Of a stretch of 64,000 bases of DNA, positions 25,563 to 34,210 are shown one piece after another (within the stretch, counting starts at the first letter, position 1; each line of letters begins with the position of its first letter). Below the pieces are notes generated by a model. That model did not search any database. It saw only the letters and a list, made by a program, of their open reading frames with translations, and was not told the DNA's origin. Where the stretch lies: positions 54,327-118,326 of the IMG/VR virus record IMGVR_UViG_3300006484_000005, one strand, 5' to 3'. Both the position numbers and the translations under genes were made by a program. Origin of the DNA: a virus.

Positions 25563-26801
25563 TTATTTATTATAAATATAATTTTTTGATTTTTTTGTAG
25601 TTTTTGTTACTGACTTAATGGTATTTAAGACATTTTTATCTATCAAATCTGGATGTATCCACCAATCTTCAAATGAAGATTTACCATCTGTAGATATATC
25701 ATTTACAATTAATTCATATCCTTTAGATTTTAAATATTTTCTTGACTTATCACGATATGATTTTGTTTCATCACAATAATGATCATGTTCGTATGTTATT
25801 ACTGCAAATCGATATTTTTCAAATGGGATTTGTAGTAAGGCTTCAAATGTATTACGAGGTGGCTCACAATCTAATTGCAAATAATCCCAATCATTTCCCC
25901 AATTTGTATCACTTAATATTTTATCATAATTAGCAACCGTAGCATCTTGTAATAAACAAAAATTATCTCTTATACCGTTAAACTTGTTTACTAAATTATT
26001 ATCAATTTCTAATGATACTCCTTTCCAATTGAAGTCCTTTTCTAAAATGTAAGTATTAGAATGAACAATAGGTTCGTGTGCACCGATTTCTAAATATTTT
26101 CCATTTGTTTTTCCATTCAATGCCATTAATACAAACATATCTTGAAAAACTTGGGATTGATTATTTTTTATTTTTTCTACTCCGTTAAATTTAAATCTTA
26201 AGTCATTTAATTTTGTAGAATCATAATATGATGGTTTCTCCCAATCTCCATTCCCCCATAAAAATGTAAGATTTCTTTTTACTGAATCAATATGGGTTTG
26301 AATCATTGGTTCATTATGATGTAAATCTAAAAATAAATTTAAAGATTCATCTATACGTCCTATCCACCACGAACATACAGCTTTTTCAAATTTAAAACCA
26401 TATTTACCTGGGTATTCTACATCTATGTTTAATGAAGGTAAATCAAATTGACATACAGATTCAGCTAATGAAGATATAGTATATGATTCTTGATATTCTT
26501 TACTCCATTCATATAAACGTGAAAGTAAAAAATAAGCTTCGGGACGTTTTGGTGAATGTGATATAGCATGTAAGTATAATCCTTTAGTTGAAAATATACG
26601 ATCAGCTTGTTTTTCTAAACACAATCCAGCTCTAAGTAATGATGAGTAAACTAAATCACTATCTGATTCAGTTATTCTTAAATAATAAGTTAAAGCAGAT
26701 GCTGTTTGGTTTTGATCATAATATAAATTAGCTAAATCAAATATAACTTTATCATTATACGGATCATCTATAAATTTATTTAATGCTTGTTGAATGCTCA
26801 T
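25563..26801 (-). CDS. TPR protein with C-terminal FkbM-type methyltransferase domain
   Basis: 412 residues. Residues 1 to about 170 are helical pairs of TPR type (DLANLYYDQNQTASALTYYL, HSPKRPEAYFLLSRLYEW). From about 215 the FkbM pattern appears: SQVFQDMFVLMAL, then GKYLEIGAHEPIVHSNTYIL as the SAM-binding loop and WKGVSLEID. FkbM enzymes O-methylate sugars or other hydroxyls. The TPR part may bind the acceptor or other glycan enzymes. It overlaps the GH130-like gene by 4 bases, so the two are coupled. Last member of the enzyme island. Substrate unknown. Confidence 0.75.
   Translation of the reverse strand: MSIQQALNKFIDDPYNDKVIFDLANLYYDQNQTASALTYYLRITESDSDLVYSSLLRAGLCLEKQADRIFSTKGLYLHAISHSPKRPEAYFLLSRLYEWSKEYQESYTISSLAESVCQFDLPSLNIDVEYPGKYGFKFEKAVCSWWIGRIDESLNLFLDLHHNEPMIQTHIDSVKRNLTFLWGNGDWEKPSYYDSTKLNDLRFKFNGVEKIKNNQSQVFQDMFVLMALNGKTNGKYLEIGAHEPIVHSNTYILEKDFNWKGVSLEIDNNLVNKFNGIRDNFCLLQDATVANYDKILSDTNWGNDWDYLQLDCEPPRNTFEALLQIPFEKYRFAVITYEHDHYCDETKSYRDKSRKYLKSKGYELIVNDISTDGKSSFEDWWIHPDLIDKNVLNTIKSVTKTTKKSKNYIYNK
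25571..25579 (-). promoter_or_regulatory. putative late promoter inside the end of the FkbM gene (ATATTTATA)
   Basis: The consensus is embedded in the last codons of the preceding gene and dictates its NYIYN ending. It lies 20 bases before the ATG at 25550. Having the motif conserved inside coding sequence supports its importance. Confidence 0.6.
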
Positions 26802-27769
26802 ATTCCTGATAATGTTTTAAAATAATTTAAAGGTATGTTTAGTAAATAAGCAGCATTGTCTTCATATCCAAACGAAACTAATACATTATCATCTTTTACA
26901 GCTAATCCACAACAAAATTCAATATAACCAGTCATAAAATCAAATTCATCACTTGTATTTACTACATTCCAATCTTTATCCCACGTTACTATTCTATGTC
27001 GGTAAGTAGCTTCTTTATTATTATTTTTATTTTGCCATAAATCAACTTCATGTGTTATTGCTACTCGATAATCACCAATAGTTATAACTTGACTTCCACC
27101 TCGTATATCGCGTTTAGTAGAATATGGCTTACCTAAAAATACTTGCTTGCATGTTTTATTAATTGGATCTACCTTAACAATTTCTGTTGGATTAGTCCAT
27201 TTAACAAAATGATATGGCATATCTAAAATTGGCATCCAGTTTTTTTCACAATATGAATCGTTAGTAAATGGAGAAGGAATTCTAAATCGACTTATTTCTG
27301 TTACTTTATTATCTAGAATTTTTATTTCTGATAATTCCATTCGGCCTTCACCATTTGTTTTAGTATCTCGTCTTACCCCACACACGTATAATTTATTATC
27401 CCATCTAACTAAACGAGCATCTTCTAAACCAACAAATTCCCAAACTGGTGTTATATCATATCTTGATGTATCTATTTTATTAAATAAATCTATTAATAAA
27501 TCATCATCTAATGAACAAAAATAATTAGTTGTTCTTAGTGTTATGTCGTTTTCTGGGTTTAGGTATGCTAATGGGCCATATCGATTTTCAAATTTACCTC
27601 TAGTATGATATAGTGTATATTGTACGTGGCGTAAATTTAAAATTAATTTTCCATTATCATTAAAAATGGATGGATTCATTAATCCAGTTCCGTTTGTATC
27701 GGGATGAGAAATAATAAGGGGTACAATATTACCCCCATTTTTTATAACTTGTTTTGATAAATTTTTCAT
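26798..27769 (-). CDS. five-bladed-propeller glycosidase/phosphorylase-like protein (GH130-like)
   Basis: 323 residues. Motifs spaced as in GH130-type propellers: MNPSIF near the start, GLEDARLVRWDNKLYV (the EDPR-like motif), CEKNWMP, DIRGGSQV, and EFCCGLAVKDDNVLVSFGYED at the end. Family members cleave or phosphorolyse mannosides, but related propellers of unknown function often sit beside glycosyltransferases and TPR proteins. It begins 1 base after the dioxygenase gene and overlaps the FkbM gene, so it is part of the island. Confidence 0.65.
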   Translation of the reverse strand: MKNLSKQVIKNGGNIVPLIISHPDTNGTGLMNPSIFNDNGKLILNLRHVQYTLYHTRGKFENRYGPLAYLNPENDITLRTTNYFCSLDDDLLIDLFNKIDTSRYDITPVWEFVGLEDARLVRWDNKLYVCGVRRDTKTNGEGRMELSEIKILDNKVTEISRFRIPSPFTNDSYCEKNWMPILDMPYHFVKWTNPTEIVKVDPINKTCKQVFLGKPYSTKRDIRGGSQVITIGDYRVAITHEVDLWQNKNNNKEATYRHRIVTWDKDWNVVNTSDEFDFMTGYIEFCCGLAVKDDNVLVSFGYEDNAAYLLNIPLNYFKTLSGI

Positions 27770-27770
27770 C

Positions 27771-28352
27771 TTATTTATAAGAACTCCCTCCCATCCATAA
27801 AACTAAACTTTTACGAGTGCCTTTAGTTATGGGTGTTACCCGATGCATTAAAAATGATGGGAATAAAATTGCACATCCTTGTTTACGCTCTACTTTTTGA
27901 AAATCACCTCCAGCCCATATTTCAAAATCACCACCTTCATACTTATTTGGGTCTGATAATTGAATAGAACAGCTAATTTTTCTATCATTAATACTTCCTG
28001 GTCCTATATCAATATGCCAATCATAATGACCACCACCTTCATAATAAACTGTGTATTGGATAGCATCTATTACTGAATGTAAGTTGAATTTCCACATTTC
28101 ATTGTTTGCTTCTATAGCTAATTTGCATATTTTTTCATATACCCAAAATGATCTTTCATTATTGTGTAGCCATTTTATATTAGATTTACGAATATTATTA
28201 TTTTCTCCGATAATTGTAGCTTCTTGGAATGGATATAATTCTTGTAAATTATTAATCCATTCTAATTCTTTAGCATTAAATGCATCTTCGATAACATAAT
28301 ATCTTGTTTGGTCGATTGATTGATCCCTTGGAAATACTAATTTATTCTCCAT
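27771..28352 (-). CDS. 2-oxoglutarate/Fe(II)-dependent dioxygenase (prolyl hydroxylase-like)
   Basis: 193 residues with the complete facial triad: H113-x-D115 in DWHIDIG and H170 in FLMHRVTP, plus Arg180 for 2-oxoglutarate binding (KGTRKSLVLW). The YEGGDFEIW segment is typical of the PiuC/prolyl 4-hydroxylase superfamily. Hydroxylates a protein side chain or small molecule using O2. In the same late operon as a collagen-like fibre, which makes a fibre side chain a candidate target, but this is inference. Confidence 0.85.
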   Translation of the reverse strand: MENKLVFPRDQSIDQTRYYVIEDAFNAKELEWINNLQELYPFQEATIIGENNNIRKSNIKWLHNNERSFWVYEKICKLAIEANNEMWKFNLHSVIDAIQYTVYYEGGGHYDWHIDIGPGSINDRKISCSIQLSDPNKYEGGDFEIWAGGDFQKVERKQGCAILFPSFLMHRVTPITKGTRKSLVLWMGGSSYK

Positions 28353-28680
28353 ATAAATGTTTAATAATGATTGTTAATGAAATGCAAATCCATATTGTAT
28401 TAAATAAAATTAATGTTGGTAATGATTTTCTCATTGATGCCCAAATTAATGAGGATGATGTTGCTAATGTTAAAAAATGCATATACCATAATTCAATACC
28501 AAATATCAATCCGGGAACGATGATAATTGCTTTTGCCATCCATGAGCAAAATTCGATCGTATTATAATCAGTCCAGTATTTTTTATCAAAATACATTTGG
28601 TACCGATTTAATATTTTATCATAACCAATAACAAAATATAATAAAGACAGGTAGGTAATAAAAATAATTGGGTAGATCAT
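28342..28680 (-). CDS. small membrane protein
   Basis: 112 residues with three probable membrane helices: IIFITYLSLLYFVIGY near the N-terminus, AKAIIIVPGLIFGIELWYM in the middle and LILFNTIWICISLTIII at the end. Overlaps the dioxygenase gene by 11 bases and follows the halogenase by 18, so it belongs to the island. No family recognised. Confidence 0.65.
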   Translation of the reverse strand: MIYPIIFITYLSLLYFVIGYDKILNRYQMYFDKKYWTDYNTIEFCSWMAKAIIIVPGLIFGIELWYMHFLTLATSSSLIWASMRKSLPTLILFNTIWICISLTIIIKHLYGE

Positions 28681-28698
28681 AACGTATTTTTATAAATT

Positions 28699-30264
28699 TT
28701 ATAACTCTAACATATATTCAATGAATACACTATGCTTCATAAACATATGCTCATTTAATAACATATTTACTTTAAATTTACTACGGTGTATTGCCATTTC
28801 TTCTCGTCGCATATCAGATAACATAGCTTCTAAACATTCAACTGCAATTTTTGGTTGCAGTAATTTTAAACCTGCAAGAATTGAATACCAACTTGGAATA
28901 CCATATGCTAATAATTTACGTCTTGATGTTAAAAACATCTCATCTGGAATTGTTACTTCACATTCATCTAATAATTCTTTAACACGTTCAGGTATTTTAT
29001 TTTTGTCCCTGAATTCAGTCCAAAATTTACTTGTTGATCTTTGAGTTAAATAATGGGTGTAAATAAATTCCATATTTTCTCCATTTATAGAACGCATTCG
29101 TTCATTATATCGATCAATATAAAATTGCTTTCTGATGATAGCTCCTAAGTTATTATCTAAATATGATGTAAGAGCTATAACTTGAAGCATAATTGATGTA
29201 GCCTCTAAAGGTTCGATAAAACCAGACGATAAGCCAATAGCAACACAATTTTTTACCCATGGAGTTTCATACATACCAGCTTCAAAGTCAAATTCTTTTC
29301 CCCACTTAATATCGGTTCCGAATTTTTGAATTATTTCTTCTTTAGCTTCTTCAACGGTTATATAATCTGAGTCAAAAACATACCCACATCCGAATCTATC
29401 TTGAATAGGTATTTTCCAAACCCAACCACATTCCATTGCTATTGATTCTGTATATGGAGGAATTTCATCTAAATCATCTAAATCCATAAAGAAACCAATA
29501 GCTTTCTTCATTGGTAGGTGTTCTTTATATGATATCCATTTTGATTTATATAATCCACCAATAATTAATCTTTTAAATCCAGAGCAATCAAATACAAAAT
29601 CGGATTTTATTTCTTCTCCTTTTTTAGTTGTGATGTATTTAATGTATTCATTTTCATCTAATACAAAATCAACTACTTCATCATCAATATGGACTATTTC
29701 TCGTTTAAGAGCAACTTCCTTTAAATAATTAGCTAATAACACAGCATCAAAATGAACAGCATGTGATCCCATTTGATCTAAATGGGATTTAGCATTATCT
29801 AATTTATTGTTAATGTTTTGGTTTGGTGTGTATTTTACTCTATTAGATTTATTAAGTTTAGAATCAATAAAGATTTCATTAAGATTTCTACCATACCCTA
29901 CAGGTTCTAAAGCAAGACCTGGTAGCATTTGGCCAGTAGGATTGTCAAATTTAAATGGATTGAAATTATCGTGATTAGCAAATCCATGGAAATACGACTC
30001 TCCATCTCCATTCCAATTAGTAAATTCAATACCATTTTTAACAGTTGCTTTAGCATATTTAAATAAACCCTCAAATGGTATCCCTAAATTCTCTAAGGCA
30101 GCTAGTACATTAGGAGTAGTACCTTCACCAGCACCTAATATTCCGATATCAGAACTTGAAATTACTCTTACTTTAGTAAATGGATAATATTTTTGAAGAT
30201 AAAGTGCAGTTAACCACCCTGCGGTTCCTGAACCTACTACTGTAAAATTGTAAATTTGTGACAT
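28699..30264 (-). CDS. flavin-dependent (tryptophan halogenase-like) halogenase
   Basis: 521 residues with the complete signature of the family: FAD-binding GSGTAGW (11-17), GAGEGTTPN (44-52), the catalytic lysine at the expected place (Lys76 in ATVKNGIEFTNW), the halogenase hallmark WxWxIP (281-286), and SSGFIEPLEATSIML with Glu354 as the second catalytic residue. Such enzymes use FADH2, O2 and halide to form hypohalous acid, which is guided to the lysine to halogenate a substrate. No flavin reductase is visible nearby, so FADH2 must come from the host or from a gene outside. A halogenase (VirX1) is known from a cyanophage. The target here is unknown. It lies in the late operon between tail-tip genes and the other modifying enzymes. 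Confidence 0.9.
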   Translation of the reverse strand: MSQIYNFTVVGSGTAGWLTALYLQKYYPFTKVRVISSSDIGILGAGEGTTPNVLAALENLGIPFEGLFKYAKATVKNGIEFTNWNGDGESYFHGFANHDNFNPFKFDNPTGQMLPGLALEPVGYGRNLNEIFIDSKLNKSNRVKYTPNQNINNKLDNAKSHLDQMGSHAVHFDAVLLANYLKEVALKREIVHIDDEVVDFVLDENEYIKYITTKKGEEIKSDFVFDCSGFKRLIIGGLYKSKWISYKEHLPMKKAIGFFMDLDDLDEIPPYTESIAMECGWVWKIPIQDRFGCGYVFDSDYITVEEAKEEIIQKFGTDIKWGKEFDFEAGMYETPWVKNCVAIGLSSGFIEPLEATSIMLQVIALTSYLDNNLGAIIRKQFYIDRYNERMRSINGENMEFIYTHYLTQRSTSKFWTEFRDKNKIPERVKELLDECEVTIPDEMFLTSRRKLLAYGIPSWYSILAGLKLLQPKIAVECLEAMLSDMRREEMAIHRSKFKVNMLLNEHMFMKHSVFIEYMLEL

Positions 30265-30278
30265 AACTTATTTTTATT

Positions 30279-30707
30279 TTATACTTGTGGGGGTAGATTA
30301 TGTGGTGCTGAGTCTTGAGGGAAGATATCAGTTAACGGGATTACATTCCATTGTTGTGTTATTTTATTCCATTTTGGAATTTCTATTGCTTCATTATAAC
30401 TAGGAACTGGAATTGGGTATTCCCACATAAATGTTGTAGTATTTAATATTACTTGATCATTTGGTCTTTGTGAATGAAATACATCATGTTCTTCATTATA
30501 CACACCACCTATTCTAGCGTAATTTGCTCTTAATGGATTATCTCCAAATTTATGCTCATTAGCAAAAGTATTATATGATGTTTGAATCCATCTTCCTTCA
30601 AAACCGATTGCATTTAAGTATTCTTCACCACGATGTTCTTCTTCATCGGGTACTTTTAATATATTGACTACAATATTATTTTCGTCTATTTTTGCAAAAT
30701 GTGCCAT
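30279..30707 (-). CDS. conserved T4-like phage structural accessory protein
   Basis: 142 residues beginning MAHFAKIDENNIVVNILKV, a start widely shared by a family found in cyanophages and other marine T4-like phages, followed by GRWIQTSYNTF, NYARIGGVY and FHSQRPN. In those phages it lies among tail fibre genes and is of unknown function. It follows the glycine-rich adhesin by 6 bases. Confidence 0.7.
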   Translation of the reverse strand: MAHFAKIDENNIVVNILKVPDEEEHRGEEYLNAIGFEGRWIQTSYNTFANEHKFGDNPLRANYARIGGVYNEEHDVFHSQRPNDQVILNTTTFMWEYPIPVPSYNEAIEIPKWNKITQQWNVIPLTDIFPQDSAPHNLPPQV

Positions 30708-30713
30708 ATTATT

Positions 30714-31721
30714 TTACGTCGAAAATGTGCCTGAACTATTGAATGTATGATATGTATAACCACCACCTGAAGATATACTTCCACCATTACAAACTTGACC
30801 TCCAGCGTATCTAACTCTTACAATGCCCGAACCTCCACTACCATTTCTTCCAGGAGCACCAACGTGAGCTATACCACCTCCACCACCTCCAGTGTTTGCA
30901 CCTCCTGGATCTGATGATTGCCATACGTTATCATAATTATTTCCACCACTTGATGCTCCTTTTCCACCACCACCTGCACCTCCAGGAGCAGACCAGTTCC
31001 AATCCCAGTTACCTCCTCCTCCACCACCTCCATAATAAGCACCAAAATCATTTACGTATCTTCCATCACCACCTCGACCACCTATAGGATCACCTAAACA
31101 AGTATTTGCTCCAGTAGCTCCAGTTCCTCCACCTCCGCCACCTCCAGCTTGACAATTTGCATTACCTCCTGGATTACCAAATCCTCCTGGGTATGAGGGT
31201 AGTCCTTGTTTTCCATTATTTCCTTGATTTCCATTTATACCACCACCACCTCCACACCCACCATTTTCACCAATACCTAAATCTACCCCTTTAGCGTCGC
31301 CATAACTAGATCCACCACCACCACCACCATTTATAGAGATACCTCCAAAATTACAATCACCTCCATTAGCTCCTTTATCATTATCATCTACCCATCGTGA
31401 ACCAGCAAATGCACCACCTCCACTAACACCAACACCAAATGAACTACATCTACTTACTGCGTATGAGGACAAATGAACCTGACCTCCGGCTCCACCTCCA
31501 CCACCACCACCTGGCCATCCTCCACCTCCACCACCACCTGCGGCTTGTACCATTAAGGCAATAGTGACTGTATTAGAATATCCAAAAAATTCACTCATTG
31601 AGTCAGAAGTACCCTTTCCAGCCTTAGAACTCAATGATCGTAATGAATAAGAACTACCACAGTTTATTAACTCATTTCTAATTTGTGATATTGAAATTGC
31701 TCCTGAACCTTGTAATGCCAT
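30714..31721 (-). CDS. glycine-rich tail-tip adhesin
   Basis: 335 residues. The N-terminal 50 (MALQGSGAISISQIRNEL to MSEFFGY) match the start of many tail proteins in flavobacterial phages and probably anchor it. The rest consists of long glycine runs broken by variable loops rich in Trp, Tyr, Asn and Cys (for example NWDWNWS), as in the polyglycine-helix receptor-binding tip of S16 gp38. The loops would decide host specificity. Very high glycine content produces GC-richer codons than the neighbouring genes. Confidence 0.75.
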   Translation of the reverse strand: MALQGSGAISISQIRNELINCGSSYSLRSLSSKAGKGTSDSMSEFFGYSNTVTIALMVQAAGGGGGGGWPGGGGGGGAGGQVHLSSYAVSRCSSFGVGVSGGGAFAGSRWVDDNDKGANGGDCNFGGISINGGGGGGSSYGDAKGVDLGIGENGGCGGGGGINGNQGNNGKQGLPSYPGGFGNPGGNANCQAGGGGGGGTGATGANTCLGDPIGGRGGDGRYVNDFGAYYGGGGGGGNWDWNWSAPGGAGGGGKGASSGGNNYDNVWQSSDPGGANTGGGGGGIAHVGAPGRNGSGGSGIVRVRYAGGQVCNGGSISSGGGYTYHTFNSSGTFST

Positions 31722-31764: not shown

Positions 31765-32085
31765 TTAAACCCAAGGTAATGGAATACTTACTGTGGGGGG
31801 ATTTTCAATAAAATTAATTTGGGTATCTACTCTAGATTGTAAATCAGATATATTTAATACTGATTCTAACCATAGAGTAACCATATTTTGTGTTAATTCA
31901 TTATATGGAATAAAATCTTCGGATGTTGGAAGTGGCATAACACTATTACCAGAGATTTCACCTTGAGTACTTGTTGGACTCACTCCATTATACGACCAAT
32001 TGACTGTATTTACTACATTTGTTAATCCATCTATTGACGGTATTACTTCCATTGAATCTATAACCCAACTATATGTATTTGCCAT
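31765..32085 (-). CDS. small conserved phage protein (DUF7936-like)
   Basis: 106 residues with MANTYSWVIDSMEVIPSIDG, then VNTVNWSYNG and a conserved IPYNELTQNMVTLWLES followed by LQSRVDTQINFIENPP. This order is seen in a family of small proteins next to fibre genes in many marine phages. Function unknown. It starts 1 base after the collagen-like fibre gene. Confidence 0.7.
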   Translation of the reverse strand: MANTYSWVIDSMEVIPSIDGLTNVVNTVNWSYNGVSPTSTQGEISGNSVMPLPTSEDFIPYNELTQNMVTLWLESVLNISDLQSRVDTQINFIENPPTVSIPLPWV

Positions 32086-32086
32086 A

Positions 32087-34210
32087 TTATTTATTTTCTA
32101 ATATATGTATTCTATTTTTTAATTCTTCGATTTGTTTTTGTTGTTCTTTTATACCTTCAATTAGTAAACCAACCATGTTGCCGTATGCAACATTTTTGTG
32201 GCCTTTTTCATTTTCTGAAACAACTTCCGGTAATACTAATTCAACTTCTTGAGCAATTACTCCAGCAAATCTTTTATCAATATCTGCTTCAGCAACATCG
32301 GTTCTATTATATGTTACTCCATTAATTTGAGATATTTTTGATATTGCGTTTTCAATAGGAGTAATATTTGATTTTACTCTAATATCTGAATATGCAGTAA
32401 CATCATAAATTGCTGTTATATTTCCGCCAAATTGAGCGTTATTGTTTTCTAAGTTAATTTCCAACGGCCAATAACCATTATATGTAGCCCATGTTTGAGT
32501 ATTATTTCCGTTACCTCTTAGTACATACCATATATTACTATTACAATGTATCATTGAAGAGCGGTTATCCGTATCTTGTAGATAAATTGTTGGTGATGTA
32601 TTATTAATAACTACATTGGCAGAAGATGAGAATGTACCTGTTGGGCCAGTTGGTCCAGTTGGACCTGTTGGACCAGGACTACCTGTTCCTGTAGTACCCT
32701 GAGCACCTGTTGTTCCTTGTCTACCTTGTATACCTTGAGCACCTTGAGCACCAGCAGCACCTTGAGCACCAGCTGGTCCTGTTGGACCTGTAGTACCAGT
32801 TGCACCTTGAGCTCCGGTTGGACCTGTAGGACCTGTTGTACCTGTTGTACCTTGAGCTCCAGTTGGTCCAGTTGGACCAGTGGTTCCTTGAGCTCCAGTT
32901 GGTCCTGTTGGACCAGTAGTACCAGTTGCACCTTGAGATCCAGTTGGACCAGTTGGTCCTGTAGGACCTAATGGTCCTGTTGGTCCTAATGGACCAGTTG
33001 GTCCTGTTGTTCCTGTAGTTCCTTGAGCACCAGCTGGACCTGTAGGACCTGGTGATCCTGTAGTTCCTGTTGTACCCTGAGCACCAGCTGGTCCTGTTGG
33101 ACCTAATGGTCCTGTTGGACCTGTAGTTCCAGTAGTACCTTGCGAGCCAGTTGGACCTGCAGGTCCAGTAGAACCTTGAGATCCAGTTGGTCCTGTGGTA
33201 CCTGTAGCACCTTGAGCACCAGTTGGTCCTGTAGGACCTGTTAAACCAGTTGGTCCTGTATTACCTGTTGTACCTGTTGTACCTTGTGAACCCGTTGGAC
33301 CTGTTGGTCCAGTAGTTCCTGTTGTACCTTGGGATCCTGTTGGTCCTGGAGATCCATTTGCACCAGTTGTACCTTGAGCTCCAGCGGGTCCTGTAGGACC
33401 AGTAGTTCCTGTAGCGCCTTGAGATCCTGTTGGACCCGTTGGTCCTGTTAATCCTGTTGGTCCAGTTGGACCATTTGCTCCAGTAGTACCTTGAGCTCCA
33501 GCTGGACCTGTAGGACCTAATGGGCCTGTTGAACCAGTAGTTCCTTGGGATCCTGTTGGACCTGTTGGTCCTGTATTACCTGTTGTACCTTGAGCTCCAG
33601 CGGGTCCTGTTGAACCAGTAGTACCTTGAGTACCTGTTGGGCCAGTAGGACCTGTTGTACCTTGGGCACCTGTTGGGCCAGTAGGACCTGTAGTACCTTG
33701 GGCACCTGTAGCACCTTGAGCACCATTTGCACCATTAGTACCTTGAGCACCTGTAGCACCTTGTAAACTTAAATTTGAACGGAATCTAATATTACCTCCA
33801 GCGTCGGCAACTAATATATTTGTTTCTGTTGTACCGGATGGTACACCTGGGATTTGGAAACTTCCACTAACAGCTAATGAACCTGTTATTCCAACAGACC
33901 CTGTAAATTGATGGGTATTTGCTGTTGTTGATCCATTACGAGTTGATCCAGTATTGAATTCGATGGATGATGTAATAACCTGTACATTAATTGTTTGGGC
34001 AGTTAATGTACCTCCAACTGTAAAGTTATTTGCAAATGAACTAGTAGCAGCAAATGATGCTGAATTAACAGACATAGATGATGTCTGATTAGCTAGTACA
34101 ACACTAACTCCATTTAATGTAATACCGGATCCTGTTACTGTTAACGATCCGGAAACCACAACATTATTTTTCGCAATTATACCATTGCGCGATACAAATT
34201 CATTTGGCAT
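32087..34210 (-). CDS. collagen-like tail fibre with C-terminal S74 intramolecular chaperone
   Basis: 707 residues in three parts. An N-terminal fibre region (1 to about 145) holds one copy of the [10 protein letters not shown] module shared with the other fibres. About 375 residues of Gly-X-Y repeats follow, mostly GPT, GAQ and GTT, which should form a collagen-type triple helix. A short head domain then leads to a Peptidase S74 chaperone: [34 protein letters not shown] and a final coiled coil. S74 domains trimerise and usually cleave themselves at the conserved Ser before Asp. It has its own promoter motif 39 bases upstream. Confidence 0.9.
32633..33765 (-). repeat. Gly-X-Y (collagen-like) coding repeat
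   Basis: About 1.1 kb of imperfect 9- and 18-base repeats encoding Gly-X-Y triplets with Pro in the X position and Thr in the Y position (GPT) as the dominant unit. Shifted frames also stay open over long distances because of this periodicity. Confidence 0.9.

Follow-up and report, generated by a model that had tools for sequence, protein, structure and literature searches.

A viral halogenase subfamily linked to a tail-tip adhesin-like gene, and its candidate role in modifying that adhesin

A predicted FADH2-dependent halogenase from the tail region of a T4-like myovirus belongs to a monophyletic viral subfamily linked to a glycine-rich protein of tail-tip type, and we give about an even chance to the reading that it modifies the tail-tip adhesin of its own phage post-translationally, probably on tryptophan or tyrosine. 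The halogenase falls in an established family; the adhesin-linked subfamily and the gene module around it look new. The gene lies in a stretch of 64,000 nucleotides (hereafter the window), which corresponds to bases 54327-118326 of the 118,326-base virus record IMGVR_UViG_3300006484_000005.

The phage is recognised as a T4-like myovirus by its tail sheath, a T4-type baseplate protein and a prohead protease. Its terminase is nearest to those of Flavobacterium phage immuto (50.7%) and Microcystis phage Mel-JY01 (46.2%), and from these relatives we infer a host among the Bacteroidota. The tail-region genes are closely packed on the minus strand, and the part under study runs from a collagen-like tail fibre ending in an S74 chaperone domain (32087-34210, 707 aa; PF01391, PF13884 and PHROG tail families), through a DUF7936 protein (31765-32085, 106 aa; PF25590, E 8.8e-20), the glycine-rich adhesin-like protein (30714-31721, 335 aa), a phrog_7759 protein (30279-30707, 142 aa; E 1.5e-29) and the halogenase (28699-30264), to a 112-aa protein that is hydrophobic by eye (28342-28680), a 2OG-Fe(II) oxygenase (27771-28352, 193 aa; PF13640, E 3.4e-15) and a variable pair formed by a 323-aa protein and a 412-aa protein with TPR hits (25563-27769). 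The 112-aa protein recurs beside subfamily halogenases, with homologs tagged in 10 of 13 loci (L232-L244) and a dN/dS of 0.106, and the oxygenase resembles NCBIfam PKHD-type hydroxylase models, with scores below their cut-offs. The sequence-only reading had set the halogenase between a tail-tip adhesin region and other side-chain-modifying enzymes; this neighbourhood, with the glycine-rich protein upstream and the oxygenase downstream, was borne out and is conserved within the subfamily.

Around a stable core of genes, the surroundings are altered piecemeal. The variable pair is absent from the relatives L004 and L005, where it appears as a gap in the DNA comparison, and L003, with 88% DNA identity to the window, carries an extra halogenase and a 2OG gene directly before the glycine-rich gene. 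A second, divergent halogenase before the adhesin gene was observed both in L003 (4409-6502), where it is 36% identical to that of the window and is followed by the 2OG gene, and in L240 (3788-5323). At 30264-30280 and at the equivalent site in relatives, an AT-rich stretch ending TAAGTTATG precedes the start codon of several subfamily halogenases and could serve in ribosome binding or as part of a promoter. Outside the window, a sugar cluster (L006:4315-13930) encodes family-2 and group-1 glycosyltransferases, a UDP-galactopyranose mutase and an RmlD-type enzyme, possibly with a role in DNA or virion glycosylation.

The halogenase ORF runs from ATG to stop and encodes 521 aa. It matched Pfam PF04820 (Trp_halogenase) with E 6.8e-99 and 332.2 bits against a cut-off of 21, over profile positions 3-445 of 458, and PHROG 2928, "tryptophan halogenase", with E 1.4e-102. 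Every motif named when a flavin-dependent halogenase with intact signatures was first proposed is present, namely G11-S-G-T-A-G16-W17 (G11, G13 and G16 being the glycines of the GxGxxG flavin motif), K76, W281-V-W-K-I-P286 (the WxWxIP motif) and E351-P-L-E354-A-T-S. By sequence, K76 and E354 line up with the conserved Lys and Glu of solved tryptophan halogenases; in an alignment of 107 viral halogenases, 106 rows have Lys at K76, where the remaining row has a gap, and 97 rows have Glu at E354. An AlphaFold2 model from a 42-row alignment (pLDDT 90.5, pTM 0.90) matched PyrH with Z 43.5 (rmsd 2.0, 484 residues), PrnA with Z 40.7 (485 residues), MibH with Z 38.8 (479) and VirX1 with Z 36.4 (477). 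Values of dN/dS of 0.128 and 0.136 against two relatives about 91% identical indicate purifying selection; the gene is intact and under selection, and its product is a halogenase by prediction.

Residue 411 is Thr in the window's enzyme and Asp in 84 of the 107 viral rows. An acidic residue near this position is frequent across the family and would help to hold free tryptophan; its loss was inconsistent among members and was discarded as a mark of the subfamily. In five other halogenases of the subfamily (L238, L239, L240, L241 and L242), the N-terminus is lengthened by about 20 residues with EEQIGPIGP-like, collagen-like motifs, an extension absent from the window's enzyme. As already noted from the sequence, no reductase is visible: PF01613, PF03358 and PF00881 had no match across the whole 118,326-base record, which is possibly incomplete, the nearest isolates measuring 160 and 190 kb against its 118 kb. 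A phage-encoded flavin reductase of these three families was accordingly discarded for this record, so that the host would supply reduced flavin.

The glycine-rich neighbour matched PF21722 (E 2.1e-6), and its model (pLDDT 83.1, 24-row alignment) gave Z 14.4 to the tail tip of mycobacteriophage Bxb1 and Z 14.0 and 13.8 to the fibre of cyanophage Pam3, with all remaining structure matches at Z 6.3 or below. Foldseek matches were weaker (E 4.6e-4 and 7.8e-3, TM about 0.3). Judged by its model, the protein is of the tail-tip or fibre type and, by likeness, of the receptor-binding type. Tryptophan makes up 1.83% of halogenase-paired adhesins (mean of five clusters) vs 0.79% of 31 related unpaired ones (p 0.0025). 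Since Ala, Cys, Thr and Gly contents also differ, with smaller p values, this enrichment lends weak support to the adhesin as a target; as proof of the substrate it was rejected, being real but unspecific.

The linkage of the two genes was assessed with four halogenase query sequences, taking the best 80 of 435 loci graded by similarity. Twelve loci with at least 47% identity could be assessed (L232-L238 and L240-L244; the contig of L239 starts at the halogenase). Every one of them has a glycine-rich ORF upstream, and in all 12 a phrog_7759 gene stands between it and the halogenase, those of L235 and L241 having been recovered by separate searches, as the longest-ORF script misses genes. After clustering at 85%, the glycine-rich ORF was upstream in 8/8 loci at this level vs 0/39 less similar ones among the best 80. 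Within two genes of the halogenase, no such ORF was found in the 25 loci at 40-45% identity, or in the 13 at 30-40%, and L246, at 45%, likewise had none upstream; within six genes, it was seen in four loci of the former group and one of the latter. The 12 linked halogenases and that of L239 form one 13-row clade with a FastTree support of 100, in which L232 represents the window and L233 represents L003. Not all rows are independent: L232-L234 are the window and its relatives at about 91%, and the queries L155 and L156 were found via the phrog_7759 gene, so that their contigs, L235 and L237, are not independent evidence; no such dependence applies to L236, L238 and L240-L244. A recent gain from a sequenced bacterium was rejected, the best bacterial identity among the best 80 loci being 39% and the next at most 34%.

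Loci of phrog_7759 place this linkage in a wider setting. Among the best 80 of 341 loci from a protein search, not de-duplicated, a glycine-rich ORF lies directly upstream of phrog_7759 in 72 of 77, and 2OG genes follow at +1 in 28/78, at +2 in 29/77, at +3 in 47/72 and at +4 in 33/68; thus, they occupy 137/295 positions from +1 to +4 vs 4/232 from -1 to -4, a contrast for which the Fisher test ignores relatedness. These loci mostly lack a halogenase, which is present in 6/80 and at +1 in 4/78, the window's group included. Consequently, the halogenase holds the place that is taken by 2OG-Fe(II) oxygenases in other phages. The phrog_7759 protein had no sequence match in the PDB or Pfam, and its position suggests a possible adhesin chaperone.

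Viral halogenases at large present a different picture. Of 50,697 phage records, 78 contain relatives, and so do at least 583 stretches of IMG/VR (583 of 600 candidates); hence, the earlier statement that only few viral halogenases are described holds for characterised enzymes and fails for genes, and a rare viral halogenase was dropped as a description. In 74 representative viral loci, from which the window copies L001 and L002 were left out, 2OG genes account for 47/174 neighbours at distance 1 (27.0%), 34/154 at distance 2 and 21/130 at distance 3, vs 25/331 at 4-6, 15/336 at 7-10 and 3/362 (0.8%) beyond. Within two genes, 81 were observed against a mean of 53.2 (sd 4.4, maximum 67) in 2000 within-locus shuffles; a sample of 60 of the viral 2OG calls gave 29 matches to PF13759 and 28 to PF13640. 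A 2OG gene lies no more than two genes away in 35/74 viral vs 3/73 bacterial halogenase loci (Fisher p 7e-10, relatedness ignored), the bacterial count being biased low, as viral sequences served to build the 2OG set; the other 39 viral loci have none within two genes.

Because this set favours the viral side, a Pfam check of bacterial neighbours was added. The bacterial set (L311-L390) comprised 73 of 80 loci, the ORF script having missed the halogenase of the other seven, and 91 of 254 eligible neighbouring proteins were scanned. TonB receptors were the commonest hits (22/91), SapC proteins were also observed (7/91), and no 2OG-FeII_Oxy family appears among the 25 Pfam families listed for the 91 proteins. 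The bacterial setting is thus quite unlike the viral one. Several halogenases per locus were rejected as a viral peculiarity, since they occur in 18/74 viral vs 29/73 bacterial loci. Four marine-type phage contigs (L084, L086, L089 and L102) carry four or five halogenases and many 2OG oxygenases within about 20 kb.

Tail-fibre genes, for their part, are not enriched beside viral halogenases. In a PHROG scan with 2OG genes excluded, covering 140 of 202 eligible genes within two positions and 140 of 459 at eight or more, tail-fibre PHROGs feature in the list of 25 families for the far set but are absent from that for the near set, and tail-fibre adjacency was rejected as a rule. Since tail-fibre PHROGs rank with the commonest families far from the halogenase but not near it, and all 25 and all 13 of the less similar loci lack the glycine-rich ORF within two genes, the adhesin link is a feature of this subfamily and not of viral halogenases at large. 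By title and abstract, no report of a tail link for phage halogenases was among the open-access papers listed.

For the favoured reading, modification of the adhesin, we infer activity, substrate, halide and timing as follows. The host would provide reduced flavin (FAD), which with O2 and halide would yield HOX, to be passed to K76. In this family, the K76-type Lys delivers HOX to an aromatic ring with the help of the E354-type Glu. The halogen would then be put on exposed aromatic side chains of the glycine-rich adhesin, most likely of Trp and possibly of Tyr, before or during adhesin assembly. The adjacent 2OG-Fe(II) oxygenases would hydroxylate side chains of the same adhesin, and the result would be an altered chemistry of the receptor-binding loops. 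The subfamily linkage, the clade support of 100, the tail-tip model, the oxygenase slot, the crowding of 2OG genes, the VirX1 locus described below and the purifying selection all speak for the adhesin. Synteny, however, can outlive or precede function, because tail loci are hypervariable. Among the targets first put forward, a virion protein is backed by synteny, whereas a surface glycan and a host metabolite gained no backing here.

We consider it unlikely that the gene is an auxiliary metabolic one, whose product puts halogen on some small compound of the infected host, be it free tryptophan, indole or a metabolite used in signalling or defence. The closest solved folds are free-tryptophan halogenases, and a metabolic role is the usual reading of cyanophage halogenases in the relevant passages of two reviews (PMC2984593; PMC10452541). 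Those of the 2010 review treat antibiotic protection by a phage halogenase as a speculative idea, and report the enzyme as absent from known cyanomyovirus hosts and its suggested role as speculative (PMC2984593); those of the 2023 review count a halogenase in 20 of 153 cyanophage genomes and merely suppose an effect on host metabolites (PMC10452541). Other phage halogenases do lie among metabolic or unknown genes, as in P-SSM2, near nrdAB, and S-RIM44, near talC, but in the subfamily studied here the position is fixed behind the glycine-rich/phrog_7759 pair, in a slot elsewhere occupied by 2OG oxygenases. On casual inspection, its neighbours include no recognised tryptophan-pathway gene.

Another virion or assembly protein of the locus, such as the collagen-like fibre or the phrog_7759 protein, could be the target in place of the glycine-rich adhesin, which we regard as quite unlikely. 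The window and several other loci of the subfamily have the collagen-like fibre gene upstream, and in Actinomycetia phage DSL-LC01 (L017:4082-9551) two genes annotated as collagen repeats precede a distant halogenase in a tail-fibre-type setting; within the subfamily, however, the glycine-rich and phrog_7759 genes are closer to the halogenase than the collagen-like gene. The phrog_7759 gene is the direct neighbour, and synteny does not separate its protein from the glycine-rich adhesin.

The turnover of neighbours (L003 has an inserted halogenase and 2OG gene, and L004 and L005 lack two genes) would suit a passenger gene in a hypervariable tail locus that gathers unrelated genes, where position tells nothing of the target. 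We find this improbable, given that gene order is kept down to 47% identity in all eight non-redundant loci, and that the association with 2OG genes recurs beyond the maximum of the shuffles. Finally, an enzyme like a flavin monooxygenase and no longer able to halogenate, or one that is inactive, would fit a record with no reductase of the three families and is highly improbable in view of the intact and conserved K76, WxWxIP motif and E354 and a dN/dS of 0.13.

Taken more broadly, the glycine-rich adhesin, its phrog_7759 partner, the 2OG oxygenases and, here, the halogenase might form a tail-tip chemistry module that covalently decorates receptor-binding loops, a proposal that we advance tentatively. 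If it is true, virions would bear halo-Trp or halo-Tyr, and chemistry would join mutation in diversifying adhesins. Receptor binding could then vary through more than mutation, and the subfamily might yield halogenases that act on whole proteins. We know of no report of halogen modification on virions. A subfamily tied to an adhesin turns the question of what phage halogenases do into a direct test.

Compared with known systems, the window's enzyme shares fold and motifs, at about 24-28% identity, with the tryptophan halogenases PyrH, SttH, Thal, PrnA and RebH; here, however, there is no biosynthetic cluster, and the gene lies in a phage tail locus. MibH (PDB 5uao), a lanthipeptide tryptophan 5-halogenase, is alike in fold and not specially close (25% identity). 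The title of its entry indicates that the PF04820 family includes a peptide-acting enzyme, whose substrate is a small secreted peptide, in contrast to the virion protein proposed here. The best match in the phage collection, the tryptophan halogenase of pelagiphage HTVC008M (40.5% over 89%), adjoins a dioxygenase gene but lies among neck and terminase genes, and not after a glycine-rich adhesin. The window's glycine-rich protein, which models onto the Pam3 fibre gp24, is followed by a gene for a small protein, much as gp24 is served by a dedicated chaperone, gp25, in the part of the source that treats it (PMC9608196), where no modification of the fibre is mentioned; homology of phrog_7759 to gp25 was set aside, as the former matched no PDB chain by sequence.

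VirX1 of cyanophage Syn10 (PDB 6qgm) is presented, in the portion of the report concerned, as the first characterised viral halogenase, with a preference for iodide (PMC8407142). It has the common PF04820 fold, with 26% identity to the window's model, but PyrH is closer in fold, and VirX1 falls in a separate clade: the window's enzyme lies in a 37-row FastTree clade (support 97) that excludes the VirX1 equivalent L021_5998. VirX1 is therefore not the closest relative, and orthology was rejected. The locus was read in syn9 (L021:1863-12425), in its version near-identical to that of Syn10, where a protein, the second of two tandem halogenases, matches VirX1 over 530/530 residues. Unlike the window, its corresponding slot has no phrog_7759 homolog; as in the window, there are glycine-rich genes upstream, two ORFs encoding Pfam Gly_rich_2 proteins, and oxygenase genes downstream, encoding one PF13759, one PF13640 and one JmjC protein, with three further ORFs that have no Pfam match. 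This arrangement raises the possibility that the native target of VirX1 is tail-related; the syn9/Syn10 locus may be another instance of the tail-tip chemistry module, which, if true, would answer what VirX1 naturally acts on.
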